From Oscillospiraceae bacterium (lineage in GTDB: Bacteria > Bacillota > Clostridia > Oscillospirales > Oscillospiraceae), in NCBI GenBank assembly GCA_902761635.1, contig CACWLG010000038.1:1-37927 (forward strand): a stretch of 37,927 bases of DNA. Direction: 5' to 3'. The position numbers were made by a program, and so were the translations under genes. This document shows positions 21,644-27,582 of this stretch, one piece after another. Position 1 is the first letter of the stretch. The number at the start of each line of letters is the position of its first letter. The notes under the pieces are model-generated. The model searched no databases. It worked only from the letters and a program-made list of their open reading frames with translations, and was not told the origin of the DNA.

Positions 21644-21670
21644 AGGGGCGGCCATGCGGCCGCCCCTTTA
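21644..21670 (+). terminator. Terminator of the 55-aa peptide gene
   Basis: Stem AGGGGCGGCC/GGCCGCCCCT with ATGC loop (21644-21667), followed by TTTA. Its tail is directly joined to the first MITE-like element. Confidence 0.88.
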
Positions 21671-21671
21671 A

Positions 21672-21816
21672 GTCAACACCGCACAATCCGCCTTCGGCAT
21701 CTCCTGGAAAATTTGTGCCCTGATTTCGTCACTTTTTCTTGAGGTACACAAAGTACATCTGCGAAAAAGTGCAAATTTTCTCAGGATCTGCTCTTGCCGA
21801 ATTATGCGGTATTGCC
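21672..21816. mobile_element. MITE-like element, copy 1
   Basis: This 145-bp element has imperfect terminal inverted repeats (left GTCAACACCGCACAATCCG; right end reads GGCAATACCGCATAATTCG on the other strand; 15 of 19 match) and is flanked by TTAA direct duplications at 21668-21671 and 21817-21820. It has no coding capacity. The interior has an inverted repeat CACTTTTTC (21730-21738)/GAAAAAGTG (21763-21771), extended in this copy by AAATTTGTGC/GCAAATTT. Bases 21692-21772 are identical to copy 2. It lies between the peptide terminator and the end of the HAD gene. Transposition would need an enzyme in trans; none is in the window. Confidence 0.8.
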
Positions 21817-21829
21817 TTAATCGTCCTGT

Positions 21830-22654
21830 TTAATTCAGCACAAAGCGCTCCACCGCGCGGGCAAAGCCCGCCTCGTTGTTGCTCGCCGTCACATAGTCCG
21901 CGGCCCCGAGAAGCGCGGGGGCGGCGTTTGCCATGGCAACACCGATGCCTGCAAGCTCCAGCATATCGAGGTCGTTGGTCCCGTCACCGAGGGCCATGCT
22001 GTCCTTGGCCTCCACACCGAGGATGCGGCACAGGCTCATCAGGCACTGGCCCTTGGTGGCGCTCAGGGCATTGATCTCAATGTTGAAAGGCATGGAGGTG
22101 GAAAAGGCCAGGTTCGGAAAGCGCTTCGGCAGCTCCTCCAGCTCCCGCGCGCGCTGCTGCATGTCGGTGAAGTAGAGCTGCAGCTTCTGCACGCCGGTCC
22201 CCTTTTCCCGGAGAAAGGCCTTCAGCTCCGGCACGGGAGCGCGAAGACTGGTAATAAGCTTTCGCACACCGGGGTCCGGGATGATACCGGGGGCAACCTT
22301 CAGCATGTCGGCGGTCATATAGCCCCAGTTGTCCTGATAGCAGTCATAGAGCACCCCGAGGGTATCGGCATATTCATAGAAGGCCACAGCCTCCTCCACC
22401 GGGATCTCGGCCCGCGCGGCGGCACGATCCTTCTGGGCGTCGTAGAGGTAGGAGCCGTTGGCCGTGATGAACCAGCGCATGAAGGGCAGGCTCTTGAGCT
22501 CGTCGGGGATGCCCTTGTAAATGCGCCCCGTGGCGGGTACGATCTGTACGCCCCGCGCGGCGGCGCGTTTGATGGCGTCGAGATTGTCCTGCGGGATCTG
22601 CTTGCTGTCGTCCAGCAGCGTCCCGTCCAGGTCAAAGGCGAGAATTTTGATCAT
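21830..22654 (-). CDS. Cof-type HAD-IIB phosphatase
   Basis: This 274-residue haloacid-dehalogenase hydrolase has motif I DLDGTLLDD with the nucleophile Asp near residue 8, motif II in VPATGRIYKG, motif III Lys in SATKGQCL and motif IV GDGTNDLDML, plus the Cof-type cap inserted between. Family members dephosphorylate sugar phosphates or FMN; the substrate here is not predictable. The second ATG (22654, MIKILAFDLDG) is preferred, since GGAG is 8 bp before it and only 2 bp before the ATG at 22660. It starts 11 bp after the yifB stop and probably shares that transcript. Confidence 0.9.
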   Translation of the reverse strand: MIKILAFDLDGTLLDDSKQIPQDNLDAIKRAAARGVQIVPATGRIYKGIPDELKSLPFMRWFITANGSYLYDAQKDRAAARAEIPVEEAVAFYEYADTLGVLYDCYQDNWGYMTADMLKVAPGIIPDPGVRKLITSLRAPVPELKAFLREKGTGVQKLQLYFTDMQQRARELEELPKRFPNLAFSTSMPFNIEINALSATKGQCLMSLCRILGVEAKDSMALGDGTNDLDMLELAGIGVAMANAAPALLGAADYVTASNNEAGFARAVERFVLN

Positions 22655-22665
22655 GGCCATTGCTC

Positions 22666-24174
22666 CTAACTCAGCTCGTATGTCCTGTACTGTATCGCCT
22701 CGGCGATGTGGTCGGCGCGGATGGTGTCGGCGCCCTCCAGATCGGCGATGGTGCGGGCGACCCTGAGAATGCGGTCATAGCTGCGGGCCGAGAGGTTCAT
22801 CGTGTCGAAGGCCGCCTTCATCAGGGCGTCCCCCTCCGCGTCCGGGGCGCAGTACTGCCGGAGATCTTTGCCCTGCATGCGGGCGTTGCAGAGGGCCTTG
22901 TCCGTAAAGCGCGACCGCTGCCGCTCTCTTGCGGCGTTAACGCGCTCGCGGATCGCGGCGGAGCTCTCCGCCGGGGCGCGGCGCTTCAGCTCCTCGTAGT
23001 CCAGAGCCGGGACCTCCACAATGAGGTCGATGCGATCCAGCAACGGGCCCGAGATGCGCGAATGATAGCGGTGTACCTCCGCCTCCGAGCACTTGCATCT
23101 CCCCGAGGGGTGCCCATACCAGCCGCATTTGCAGGGGTTCATGGCGCACACCAGCATGAAGCGGCTCGGAAAGCTCACCGAACCCGCCACGCGCGAGACC
23201 GTGACCACCCCGTCCTCCAGCGGCTGGCGCAGGACCTCGAGGGCGTCATTGCGAAACTCCGGCAGCTCGTCCAGAAACAGGACGCCGTGGTGGGCAAGGC
23301 TGATCTCACCGGGTCTGGGGATCGCGCCGCCGCCGGCAAGGCCCGCCGCCGACACCGTGTGATGGGGCGAGCGAAAGGGCCGCGAGGCGACGACCGGCTT
23401 TTCATGGCTTGTGAGCCCCGCCACGGACCAGATCTCCGTGGCTTCGATGATCTCCTCGCGGCTCATATTCGGAAGAATGCCGGGCAGGCGCTTTGCCAGC
23501 ATGGACTTGCCCGCGCCGGGCGGGCCCACAATCAGGATGTTGTGACCGCCTGCCGCGGCGATCTCAAAGGCGCGTTTGACGTTCTCCTGCCCCTTCACGT
23601 CGGCAAAATCCAGCAGCGCGTCCTCCTCCGCCGTGAGGGCCGGGGCCGGCGTCGGGGAGAGCGCCTTTTCACCGCGCAGATGTCTGACAAGCTCTGTGAC
23701 TGTGCGCACCCCGTAGACCTCCAGCCCCTCGGCAAAGGCGGCCTCGCTGGCATTCTCCGCCGGGACAAAGAGGCGGCGCAGCCCCTCGCGCTTGGCGGCC
23801 AGGGCCATGGGCAGCGTGCCCTGCACGGGGCGCAGCTCGCCGGTGAGGCTGAGCTCCCCGATAAAGGCGGCGTCTTCCTCCGGCGGTCTGATGTCCCCGG
23901 AGGCAGCGAGGATGCCCACCAGGATCGGCAGGTCATACACTGTGCCGGTCTTTTTCTTGTCCGCCGGGGCCAGGTTCACTGTGAGGCGGGATACCGGGAA
24001 GCGGAAGCCGCTGTTTTTGACGGCGGCGTGTACCCTCTCCCGGGCCTCCTTGACCGCCGCATCCGGCAGGCCCACAATGTCAAAGTGGGGCAGGCCGTTG
24101 GAAATATAGACCTCCACCGACACCCCATAGCCGCCGATGCCGCTGACCCCGAGGCTTTTGACGGATGAAAACAC
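22666..24174 (-). CDS. YifB/ComM-family Mg-chelatase-like AAA ATPase
   Basis: This ~502-residue protein has an N-terminal Lon-protease-like domain (YISNGLPHFDIVGLPDAAVK), a Walker A GPPGAGKS near 217-224, Walker B GVLFLDELPEF, a cysteine-rich insert (CAMNPCKCGWYGHP...CKCS) and the C-terminal Mg-chelatase region. The family includes ComM, a branch-migration helicase acting in natural transformation; bacterial YifB without a competence context is of uncertain role. The GTG at 24174 (protein MFSSVKSLG...) is preferred: AGAGAGG lies 8 bp before it, whereas the GTG at 24183 has no room for a ribosome binding site, and the family usually starts a few residues before the SxxxLG motif. Confidence 0.92.
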   Translation of the reverse strand: MFSSVKSLGVSGIGGYGVSVEVYISNGLPHFDIVGLPDAAVKEARERVHAAVKNSGFRFPVSRLTVNLAPADKKKTGTVYDLPILVGILAASGDIRPPEEDAAFIGELSLTGELRPVQGTLPMALAAKREGLRRLFVPAENASEAAFAEGLEVYGVRTVTELVRHLRGEKALSPTPAPALTAEEDALLDFADVKGQENVKRAFEIAAAGGHNILIVGPPGAGKSMLAKRLPGILPNMSREEIIEATEIWSVAGLTSHEKPVVASRPFRSPHHTVSAAGLAGGGAIPRPGEISLAHHGVLFLDELPEFRNDALEVLRQPLEDGVVTVSRVAGSVSFPSRFMLVCAMNPCKCGWYGHPSGRCKCSEAEVHRYHSRISGPLLDRIDLIVEVPALDYEELKRRAPAESSAAIRERVNAARERQRSRFTDKALCNARMQGKDLRQYCAPDAEGDALMKAAFDTMNLSARSYDRILRVARTIADLEGADTIRADHIAEAIQYRTYELS

Positions 24175-24220
24175 GTTGTTCACCTCTCTATACAGTGTGG
24201 AGCTTTATTCCGTCCTATTA

Positions 24221-24250
24221 AAAAACCGGAGGCTTGCGTCTCCGGTTTTT
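24221..24250 (-). terminator. Terminator of aspS
   Basis: Eleven-bp perfect stem AAAAACCGGAG/CTCCGGTTTTT with an 8-base loop, lying directly after the aspS stop; on the minus strand it ends in six T. It separates the hisS-aspS region from yifB. Confidence 0.9.
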
Positions 24251-24254
24251 ATGT

Positions 24255-26039
24255 TCAGTCTTCCTCCACGTCGCCGACGACCGCGATGTGCAGCTCGTCA
24301 AGCTGCTTCTGCGTGACCTCGCCGGGAGCGCCCATGAGGATGTCCTGGGCGTTCTTGTTCATCGGGAAGGGGATGACCTCGCGGATGGAGTCCTCGCCGG
24401 CCAGGAGCATGACCATGCGGTCCACGCCCGGGGCGATGCCGGCGTGCGGGGGCGCACCGTAGCAGAAGGCGTTGTACATGGCGGGGAACTTCTTCTTCAC
24501 GTCCTCCTCGCCGAGGCGGACCATCTCAAAGGCCTTGATCATGATCTCGGGATCGTGGTTGCGCACGGCGCCGGAGGAGAGCTCCACACCGTTGCACACC
24601 AGGTCGTACTGGTCGGCGGTGATGGTGAGGGGATCAATCTCGCCGCGCTCTGCCTTGAGCAGCACATCCAGGCCGCCCGCAGGCATGGAGAACGGGTTGT
24701 GGCAGAATTCCAGCTCGCCGGACTCCTCGCCGATCTCGTACATCGGGAAGTCCACGATCCAGCAGAACTCGTAGCGCTCTTTATCCATATGGCCGGGGAC
24801 GGCGGCGCCCAGCATCTTGCGCATGACGCCCGCAGTCTTGAGGGCCTGATCGTGCTTGCCCGCGGCGACGCCCACGAGCGTGCCGGGCTTGAGGCCCAGG
24901 GCCTCGATGACGGCGTCCTTCTTTTCCGCGAGGAACTTGGCAACGCCGCCGGCAAGCTCACCCTTCTCGTCAAGCTTGAACCAGTAGGGCTTCGCGCCTG
25001 CCTGTACCTCCACGTCGGCGCAGAGCTTGTCGATCTGCTTGCGCGTCAGGTCGCAGCCGGAGACTGCGATGGCCTTGACGGTGTTGCCCTCGGCAAAGGG
25101 GGCAAACTCGGAACCCTTGACGAGCTCCGTGATATCCTGCAGCTTGAGGTCGATGCGCAGGTCCGGCTTATCCGAACCGTAGGTCTCCATAGCCTCGAGA
25201 TACGGGATGCGCTTGAAGGGGGCGGAGGAGGCGATATCGTAGGTGCCGTACTTGGCAAAGATCGGGGGCAGCACGTCCTCGAGCACGGCAAACACATCGT
25301 CCTGGGTGGCGAAGGCCATCTCCATGTCGAGCTGGTAGAACTCGCCGGGGGAGCGGTCACCGCGCGCGTCCTCATCGCGGAAGCAGGGGGCGATCTGGAA
25401 ATAGCGGTCAAAGCCGGAGGTCATGAGAAGCTGTTTAAACTGCTGTGGTGCCTGGGGCAGGGCGTAGAACTTGCCGGGGTGTTTTCTCGCCGGGACCAGG
25501 TAGTCGCGCGCACCCTCGGGACTGGAGGCTGTGAGGATGGGCGTCGTGATTTCCAGGAAGCCGTGCTCGGTCATGGCCTGACGCAGGGCCGCCACGACGT
25601 TGCAGCGGAGGATGATGTTCTTTTTGACGGCGGGGTTTCTCAGATCCAGGTAGCGGTACTTGAGGCGCTGGGTCTCATCGGCCTCGCGGCTGCGGTTGAT
25701 TTCAAAGGGCAGCTCGTTATAGCGGCAGCGGCCCAGAATCTCGATCTTCTCGGGCACGACCTCGATATCGCCGGTGGGGAGCTTGGGGTTTTTGCTGTCG
25801 CGTTCACGCACAACGCCCTCGACGGAGATGGTGGACTCCTTGTTGATGCCCTTGACGACGCGCATCATGTCCTCATTCTCGATGACCACCTGGGTGGTGC
25901 CGTAGAAGTCGCGCACGACGACGAAGGCGAAGTTATTGCCGACCTCGCGCACGTTCTCCATCCAGCCGACGATCTTGACCTTCTGGCCGACGTTCTCAAT
26001 GCGCAGCTCGCTGCAGGTGTGGGTACGGGATTGTGTCAT
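24255..26039 (-). CDS. aspS: Aspartate--tRNA ligase
   Basis: This class IIb synthetase charges tRNA-Asp (and tRNA-Asn if non-discriminating). The 594-residue bacterial-type protein has an N-terminal OB-fold anticodon domain, motif 2 with FRDEDARGDRSPGEFYQLD, a GAD insert and motif 3 GIAPGVDRMVMLL. Motif 2 reads RDEDARGDRSPGEF where most bacterial enzymes have RDEDLRADRQPEF, and the OB-fold carries WMENVREVGNNF rather than the common W-RRRD-G pattern, so this is a divergent branch. ATG 26039 follows AGAAGG. A longer upstream reading frame runs into the MITE and is an artefact. It lies downstream of hisS. Confidence 0.95.
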   Translation of the reverse strand: MTQSRTHTCSELRIENVGQKVKIVGWMENVREVGNNFAFVVVRDFYGTTQVVIENEDMMRVVKGINKESTISVEGVVRERDSKNPKLPTGDIEVVPEKIEILGRCRYNELPFEINRSREADETQRLKYRYLDLRNPAVKKNIILRCNVVAALRQAMTEHGFLEITTPILTASSPEGARDYLVPARKHPGKFYALPQAPQQFKQLLMTSGFDRYFQIAPCFRDEDARGDRSPGEFYQLDMEMAFATQDDVFAVLEDVLPPIFAKYGTYDIASSAPFKRIPYLEAMETYGSDKPDLRIDLKLQDITELVKGSEFAPFAEGNTVKAIAVSGCDLTRKQIDKLCADVEVQAGAKPYWFKLDEKGELAGGVAKFLAEKKDAVIEALGLKPGTLVGVAAGKHDQALKTAGVMRKMLGAAVPGHMDKERYEFCWIVDFPMYEIGEESGELEFCHNPFSMPAGGLDVLLKAERGEIDPLTITADQYDLVCNGVELSSGAVRNHDPEIMIKAFEMVRLGEEDVKKKFPAMYNAFCYGAPPHAGIAPGVDRMVMLLAGEDSIREVIPFPMNKNAQDILMGAPGEVTQKQLDELHIAVVGDVEED

Positions 26040-26083
26040 AGATACCAACCTTCTTCTATATGATTTGACGTTTTTATTCTTTA

Positions 26084-26225
26084 GGCAACACCGCGCAATC
26101 CGTCTTCGGCATCTCCTGGAAAATTTGTGCCCTGATTTCGTCACTTTTTCTTGAGGTACACAAAGTACATCTGCGAAAAAGTGCCTTTATCAGAACCCAA
26201 ATTTGCCGAATTATGCGGTATTGCC
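26084..26225. mobile_element. MITE-like element, copy 2
   Basis: This 142-bp copy has inverted ends GGCAACACCGCGCAATCCG (left) and the complement of GGCAATACCGCATAATTCG (right), flanked by TTTA at 26080-26083 and 26226-26229. Its core 26104-26184 is identical over 81 bp to copy 1; the next ~25 bp differ. It sits in the hisS-aspS gap: without the element and one duplication the gap would be 41 bp. The hisS stop codon (TAA on the minus strand, 26229-26227) is part of the right duplication. Confidence 0.82.
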
Positions 26226-26226
26226 T

Positions 26227-27582
26227 TTACTCTTTTATCACGCTGCTGGCATTCATCTCCGCAACGCGCGCTGCGATATGCCGCGCGGCCTCGTCCGGCG
26301 TGAGCTTGACCTGCTCGCCGGTGTGCATGTCCTTCACCGAGAGCATCCCCTCGTTCATCTCATCCTCGCCGATGAGCACCGCGAAGGGCACGCCGATCTT
26401 GTCGGCGTAGGCCATCTTGGCTTTGAACTTGCGCTTCTCGCCGTAGAGCTGCGTGCGGACCCCGGCGTTGCGGAGCGTGGTGGCCGCGGCAACGGCGAAG
26501 CCCAGTTCCTCCGTCATCGGCAGCACCAGCGCGTCGCAGGGGGCGGTGACAAGCTCGTCGGACAAAAGGCCCTGCTCACTGAGCACATAGAACAGCCGCG
26601 TCAGACCGATGGAAATGCCGACGCCCGGAAGCTGTTTGTCGGTGTAGTATTCCGCGAGGTTGTCATAGCGCCCGCCGGAGCAGACGGAGCCGATTTCCGG
26701 ATGCTCGGTCATTTCGGTCTCGTAGACGGTGCCGGTGTAGTAGTCGAGGCCGCGGGCGATAGTGAGGTCGACGGCGAAGTTTTCCTCCGGCACGCCGAAG
26801 TCCTTGAGGTACCTTGTGACGGCGATCAGCTCGTCCAGCCCCTCATCAAAGGTCCCGTCCATGCCGCGGTAGCGCTCCAGCGCCTCGATCACCTCGGCAT
26901 TCGTGCCGCAGATGGCCATGAAGTCCAGCACATTTTCCGCCTTGCAGGGGAGCATCTTCACCTCGTCAATGAGGAGCTCGCGCACCTTTTCCGCGCCGAT
27001 CTTGTCGAGCTTGTCCACGGTGCGCATGATCTCGCCGGCCTTCTCGCTCATGCCGTTCATAGCGTAGAAGCCGTTCAGGAGCTTGCGGTTATTCACGCGG
27101 ATGCGGAACTTTTTGAGCCCCAGCTTTGTGAAGGTGCTGTAGATGATGGCGGGGATCTCCGCCTCGTTTAAAATGTCCAGCTTCCCGTCGCCGATCACGT
27201 CGATGTCGGCCTGGTAAAACTCCCGGAAACGGCCGCGCTGGGCGCGCTCTCCCCGGTAGACCTTGCCGATCTGATAGCGGCGGAAGGGGAAGGCCAGCTC
27301 GGAATAGTGCTGCGCCACGTATTTTGCAAGCGGCACCGTGAGGTCAAAGCGCAGGGCCAGATCGCTGTCGCCCTTCTGGAAGCGGTAGATCTGCTTTTCG
27401 GTTTCGCCGCCGCCCTTGGCCAGCAGCACCTCCGCCGATTCGATGACCGGGGTGTCCAGGGGCGTGAAGCCGTAGAGGGCGTAGCTTTCCCGCAGGATCG
27501 AGAGCATGCGCTCCATTTTCATCTGCTGCCGGGGCAGCAGCTCCATAAAGCCGGACAGGGTCCGGGGACTGACTTTTGCCAT
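26227..27582 (-). CDS. hisS: Histidine--tRNA ligase
   Basis: This class II synthetase charges tRNA-His. The 451-residue protein shows motif 1 with YGFTPLDTPVIE, motif 2 FRRYQIGKVYRGERAQRGRFRE split across its usual Arg pair, the histidine-specific LDYYTGTVYE and GGRYDNL, motif 3 GISIGLTRL, and the C-terminal anticodon-binding domain. AGAAAGGAAAACC precedes the ATG. No T-box leader was found in the 122-bp upstream gap, which instead has two palindromes. A MITE copy abuts its stop codon, so aspS downstream may be partly insulated from hisS transcription. Confidence 0.96.
   Translation of the reverse strand: MAKVSPRTLSGFMELLPRQQMKMERMLSILRESYALYGFTPLDTPVIESAEVLLAKGGGETEKQIYRFQKGDSDLALRFDLTVPLAKYVAQHYSELAFPFRRYQIGKVYRGERAQRGRFREFYQADIDVIGDGKLDILNEAEIPAIIYSTFTKLGLKKFRIRVNNRKLLNGFYAMNGMSEKAGEIMRTVDKLDKIGAEKVRELLIDEVKMLPCKAENVLDFMAICGTNAEVIEALERYRGMDGTFDEGLDELIAVTRYLKDFGVPEENFAVDLTIARGLDYYTGTVYETEMTEHPEIGSVCSGGRYDNLAEYYTDKQLPGVGISIGLTRLFYVLSEQGLLSDELVTAPCDALVLPMTEELGFAVAAATTLRNAGVRTQLYGEKRKFKAKMAYADKIGVPFAVLIGEDEMNEGMLSVKDMHTGEQVKLTPDEAARHIAARVAEMNASSVIKE

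Follow-up and report, generated by a model that had tools for sequence, protein, structure and literature searches.

The hairpin MITEs ERIC, Correia (NEMIS) and RUP are imperfect palindromes of about 100–160 bp scattered between genes, and the element described here is of the same appearance. Other bacterial MITEs have been connected with insertion sequences (ISs), as for BrickBuilt and MITEPgRS of Porphyromonas gingivalis, which are described as IS5-derived (PMC4596501). The stretch analysed here, 37,927 nucleotides from an Oscillospiraceae bacterium (hereafter the window), contains two copies of what we propose, with a probability of about 0.9, to be a non-coding MITE family whose commonest form is 159 bp and which owes its mobility to a DDE transposase supplied in trans by IS5-group ISs. 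The family is new and ordinary in kind; among the papers listed for its end sequence or for MITEs in these bacteria, in a search with ISfinder and subscription journals outside its scope, no title is about it. The features of the two copies are as follows.

21668..21671, no strand: target duplication TTAA on the left of copy 1, within a T-run 3' of the hairpin GGGGCGGCCATGCGGCCGCCCC
21672..21816, plus strand: MITE copy 1, 145 bp, corresponding to the 159-bp form minus a 14-bp internal deletion after 21772
21672..21690, plus strand: left terminal inverted repeat of copy 1, with T instead of G at base 2
21692..21772, plus strand: 81-bp core of copy 1, identical to 26104–26184 and including the hairpin apex
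21798..21816, minus strand: right terminal inverted repeat of copy 1, GGCAATACCGCATAATTCG
21817..21820, no strand: target duplication TTAA on the right of copy 1
26080..26083, no strand: target duplication TTTA on the left of copy 2
26084..26225, plus strand: MITE copy 2, 142 bp, corresponding to the 159-bp form minus a 17-bp internal deletion after 26204
26084..26102, plus strand: left terminal inverted repeat of copy 2
26207..26225, minus strand: right terminal inverted repeat of copy 2, GGCAATACCGCATAATTCG
26226..26229, no strand: target duplication TTTA on the right of copy 2, whose minus-strand reading TAAA holds the hisS stop codon TAA

Compared with the 159-bp form, copy 1 differs by one base change and copy 2 by two, in addition to the deletions, which both lie in the right arm, and the two copies are best read as internal-deletion derivatives of that hairpin form. 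Copy 1 lies in a T-run after a G+C-rich hairpin that is itself 3' of a 55-aa reading frame without family match, and copy 2 is located between hisS and aspS. The coordinates, the lengths of 145 and 142 bp, the exact 81-bp core and the TTAA and TTTA flanks reported in an earlier note on this DNA were all confirmed on the sequence, as was the absence of coding capacity: each copy offers at most 48 codons, no ORF of 80 aa or more can fit inside either, and the listed ORFs 21739–22074, 24255–26144 and 26203–27171 each overlap a copy in part only. The ends given there as GGCAAYACCGC are exact at the left end of copy 2 and at both right ends, but copy 1 begins GTCAACACCGC. Allowing one mismatch, the window contains this 11-mer 13 times, where shuffled sequence gives a mean of 2.0 and a maximum of 7, and four of the 13 occurrences are the ends of the two elements; the element ends in the window are not chance.

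The assembly that contains the window (3.59 Mb in 176 contigs, 86% complete, with some contig ends falling inside the element) contains the exact 19-base end 125 times and its reversed pattern not once; for the exact 11-mer, some occurrences of which are inside genes, the corresponding counts are 171 and 2. BLAST gave at least 48 matches with 40 of 113 candidates scored, and 52 complete copies with both ends were found in the loci examined, so that the "two-copy" element of the earlier note was far too low a count. An exact 4-bp duplication flanks 34 of these 52 copies (strict YTAR in only 15 of the 34) and is missing from the other 18. A further 37 ends are unpaired: at least eight stop at contig ends, many of the remainder continue past the apex of the hairpin before changing to other DNA, and one (L053) resembles a chance match inside a gene. 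Some unpaired ends may have arisen when a repeated palindrome was assembled, and the missing duplications and unpaired ends together come from decay, assembly or both. Nine full-length copies are 77–99% identical (median 91%). The recent activity claimed earlier is partly supported by these identities and by an insertion site that differs between close relatives (see below), but no partner transposase is seen in the same assembly.

Several copies in this genome depart from the common form. Long variants of 225–238 bp were found at L043:1501–1725, L032:1501–1731 and L248:2481–2718; in L043 and in the partly masked L032, some 65–75 extra bases, partly palindromic, occupy the apical hairpin loop. 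At L216:2516–2575 (contig C12) two left ends with the same orientation are separated by 29 bp, apparently a copy inserted into a copy, and in L038 element ends stand in tandem. A second interspersed repeat (GCCGAAGGCTGTTATCATTTTATGAGGCT...) adjoins two element copies, in L216 and L047.

Among 60 genomes searched, the 19-base end is present in 11, the window's own included, all of the same genus, and absent from all 23 genomes of other families in the order. A scan of public genomes returned at least 114 stretches with element ends; among the 80 named matches listed, most are Clostridia assemblies from rumen and gut, many of them Ruminococcaceae, Ruminococcus or Clostridiales, with Gemmiger and Anaerotignum included. 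Single unpaired matches in one gammaproteobacterial and one Bifidobacterium record look like chance. Searches of plasmid and phage DNA with the MITE sequence gave no match, and a pattern scan of viral contigs for the ends gave one, apparently by chance. In Clostridia of rumen and gut, the MITE family is a very abundant interspersed repeat and a probable contributor to contig breaks in their assemblies. In a set of 126 distinct elements from related gut Clostridia, which retains a few chance pairings, the modal length is 159 bp (31 elements) and 83 have an exact 4-bp duplication, whereas 1000 trials with randomly re-paired flanks gave 19.3 on average and never more than 30. By sequence, the duplications divide into TTAA (34), CTAA/TTAG (17), ATAA/TTAT (11), TAAA/TTTA (10) and others (11), with YTAR in 52 of the 83; 48 of the 83 are non-palindromic and so cannot be outward continuations of the terminal inverted repeats. 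Elements of only 27–45 bp, scarcely more than two ends, occur at L101:5929–5955, L168:6984–7028 and L160:5560–5603, that of L168 flanked by a CTAG duplication. Separately, L154:1–862 (RUG12920) has a two-gene unit between two ends of the same direction, with a likeness, by eye, to RelB/RelE-type toxin-antitoxin genes.

PF01609 was searched for in 14 genomes, selected as carriers of the element, and gave 12 matches. One (L299) has both element ends and another (L306) one end, and a single end lies about 1 kb past a third (L309). L299 starts with GGCAACACCGCACAA at the contig start, has a near inverse, present twice, at its other end, and yields, from a single ORF, a protein of 325 aa that is an IS5-family transposase. 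Transposase P0001, from genome G099 of the same genus (same contig as G135:C128), matches NCBIfam transpos_IS5_4 (NF033581.1) with 310.7 bits for a cut-off of 140, as well as Pfam DDE_Tnp_1 and DUF772. The partner ISs measure 1.13–1.18 kb; three are complete on single contigs, namely L312 (1145 bp, flanked by CTAA), L313 (1135 bp, TTAA) and L314 (1134 bp, TTAA), and two further copies (L315 and L316) have two ends each and no matching duplication. The eight ends of L299 and L312–L314 agree with the MITE 19-mer at 14–18 of 19 positions, and BLAST of four MITE types against the four ISs aligned the terminal 11–29 bases, with three interior matches at E ≥ 0.08. The search proposed earlier for a full-length IS with the same inverted ends and 4-bp duplications has given a near-match, in sister species and not in the window's own assembly. 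In 24 homologue rows, which are not independent and in which near-matches in L318 and L332 are uncounted, an element-like end (at most two mismatches) lies nearby in 11 of 12 rows at 55% identity or more, against two of 12 below; the two are L334, which belongs to one element with L321, and L322 (43%), a fragment, and the one exception above is L329 (64% over 66 residues). Given the transposase profile and the 4-bp YTAR-like duplication of the three complete ISs, YTAR being the reported duplication motif for IS5 (PMC10359306), the partner is likely an IS of the IS5 family, IS5 group, which supplies an assignment for the family that the earlier note had not recognised.

Homologues of this transposase were found at E ≤ 1e-6 in 16 of 102 genus genomes, and at that threshold none in the window's own assembly (86% complete), nor in the MITE-rich genomes G035 and G027. 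Four PF01609 matches in the own genome are not flanked by element ends, although a complete MITE copy lies about 0.26 kb from one transposase fragment (L094). PF13586 gave one match in three genomes, without element ends, PF05598 gave 14 in 12 genomes, with no matching pair of ends, and the search for solved structures found none.

The hisS-aspS site was compared among relatives. Of 102 genus genomes, 96 gave an AspS match, and the comparison used 30 loci (L335–L364). The spacer between the hisS stop codon and aspS is readable in 29 of these, all except L341, which begins only 21 bases upstream of aspS. In 27 of the 29 there is no element end within three mismatches, and in the window the copy sits directly at the hisS stop. 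In G111 (L344, AspS 94% identical) two tandem elements occupy the spacer in the direction opposite to that of the window copy; the first lacks a left end and begins a few bases from the hisS stop, the second has CTAA on both flanks, and a single CTAA separates the pair. Because of the opposite direction, the G111 and window insertions look separate, at a favoured spot, and the hisS stop site seems to attract insertions. The window spacer is 190 bp with the element and 44 bp without it and one duplication; spacers of 21–55 bp are found in 13 of the 27 element-free relatives, and the range over the 29 readable loci is 21 to 432 bp. Other repeats, differing by species of the genus, occur in this spacer in several relatives. 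Conservation of the element at the same locus, put forward earlier as a sign of something other than a transposon, was thus not seen at hisS-aspS, and the transposon reading stands.

The position of copies was analysed for 46 of the 52 own copies, those with enough flank and no N, with ORFs taken on either strand and spurious ones in G+C-rich DNA included. On this basis, 31 of the 46 are no more than 60 bp from the stop of an ORF of at least 150 aa, compared with 61 of 460 points drawn at random from the same loci, and the joined sites are crossed by an ORF of at least 200 aa in 17 of 46 cases, against 288 of 460. This gene-end bias is expected both from a preference for TAA-containing target sites and from selection against insertions that disrupt genes.

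Folded as DNA, both window copies form a hairpin over their whole length (z of -6.4 for copy 1 and -5.7 for copy 2). Covariation was assessed on 26 of 28 distinct 159-bp elements, the two most divergent being left out and two more with other interiors dropped beforehand. Standard pairs fill 97.7% of cells, against 94.3% in shuffles; nine pairs changed on both sides, against 5.2, with 3 of 500 shuffles reaching nine; and both-side changes are seen in 58 cells, against 17.1. The covariation score, of a kind that related rows inflate and calculated on a structure predicted from the same alignment, is 0.145, against 0.080 shuffled and at most 0.063 when partners are slid, and further pair types (26) are not above shuffles (27.8). 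In the 49 mainly Watson-Crick pairs, departures comprise 19 G.U cells and 19 A.C cells, and neither strand is favoured as RNA by this equality; two other pairs are mostly wobble (24 and 20 G.U cells, 44 in total) and at face value favour the strand shown, the structure prediction permitting G.U and not A.C, so that wobble pairs are detectable in that direction only. Elements of the 157-, 161-, 167- and 172-bp classes also fold back (interior folding z of -2.0 to -11.6 for seven representatives), and interiors of different length classes have little similarity, with global-alignment z of 0 to 5.5 outside one family, values that leave weak homology possible. One might suppose that selection or self-correction maintains the hairpin as a DNA structure and that the ends recruit new palindromes, the family not descending from a deleted IS. 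This rather unlikely reading would draw on dissimilar interiors within IS5-type ends, on elements that tend to cluster at about 157–172 bp and to be mostly palindromic, and on the co-varying 159-bp arms, which show no RNA-strand bias at Watson-Crick pairs; the cause could be that the transposase prefers substrates of a certain length and structure, or that replication of the hairpin corrects one arm against the other. Because its arms co-vary in a selfish DNA element, the family is a good system for asking whether palindromic MITEs owe their form to selection for transposition or to an origin in replication.

Were the family a structured regulatory RNA or a set of dispersed terminators, its apparent ends being hairpin arms only, this would account for the full-length folding, the pairs maintained by both-side changes, the two wobble pairs and the many copies near gene ends. 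However, direct 4-bp duplications flank the element, no Rfam match was found in the window at gathering thresholds, the 49 other pairs show no strand bias and the hisS-aspS site is not conserved; we consider such an RNA highly improbable and reject it on the last three grounds. That the MITE is moved by a different transposase, for instance of IS1182 type, with a convergent match to IS5 ends, is suggested by the own genome itself, which has IS1182-type matches and no IS5-group homologue, and by a truncated IS1182-type transposase preceded there by AACAATACCGCATAAAG. Yet the intact relatives L277, L279 and L280 carry AAATTACCGCA-like sequence at that place and GGGGCTGTAGC-type sequence further out, neither being the MITE end, so that the motif before the truncated gene (L274/L276) is a chance resemblance; the IS5-group copies, on the other hand, match at both ends (14–18 of 19) and share the 4-bp duplications. 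An IS1182 partner was accordingly rejected, and its likelihood appears very slight indeed. A REP-like or recombination-born palindrome, spread without a transposase, would have the hairpin form and might leave several truncated one-ended copies, as observed, but precise ends and frequent direct duplications are unexpected without transposition, and we attach almost no probability to it. As a separate observation, L276 (own genome, C64:1062–1862) and L278/L297 (G100:C51) hold a near-identical IS1182-type transposase remnant in two species, and the sequence that follows it is also the same in both, which suggests a shared transferred region.

We thus retain the IS5-mobilised MITE as our reading. 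The family is short and non-coding, with terminal inverted repeats, target duplications, many copies and a partner with matching ends in sister species, and the non-autonomous transposable element with A/T-rich 4-bp targets proposed in the earlier note is borne out by the copy number, the often non-palindromic duplications and the likely sister-species IS with near-identical ends; the genome-wide search suggested there returned many copies, and not all of them without duplications. In the proposed mechanism, an IS5-group transposase would recognise GGCAAYACCGCAYAAT-like ends, excise or copy the MITE and insert it at A/T-rich YTAR-like tetramers, duplicated on insertion; such targets could coincide in part with TAA stop codons or with T-runs downstream of genes, and copies would later decay through internal deletions. 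The action of this transposase in trans, and the time of its latest activity in the window's genome, are matters of inference. This reading ties an abundant Clostridia repeat to a nameable transposase.

As in the IS5 group, the partner has a DDE_Tnp_1 transposase and a 4-bp YTAR-like duplication; a single ORF of such size, a comparable element length and short inverted ends beginning with GG are also features of that group. Against plasmid relatives, the partner transposase reaches at most 47% identity to the 10 listed, and all 5000 counted are below 60%, while 14 viral-contig homologues (40–50%) have no matching pair of ends and three of them single near-matches away from the gene. ERIC, Correia (NEMIS) and RUP, as generally described, are set apart by other ends and by other or no duplications. 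BrickBuilt and MITEPgRS are likewise non-coding and multi-copy, with terminal repeats resembling those of IS5-family ISs, but their ends are GAGACC..., unlike those of the present MITE, and BrickBuilt has a minisatellite and irregular duplications where the family described here has a hairpin and regular 4-bp duplications (PMC4596501).
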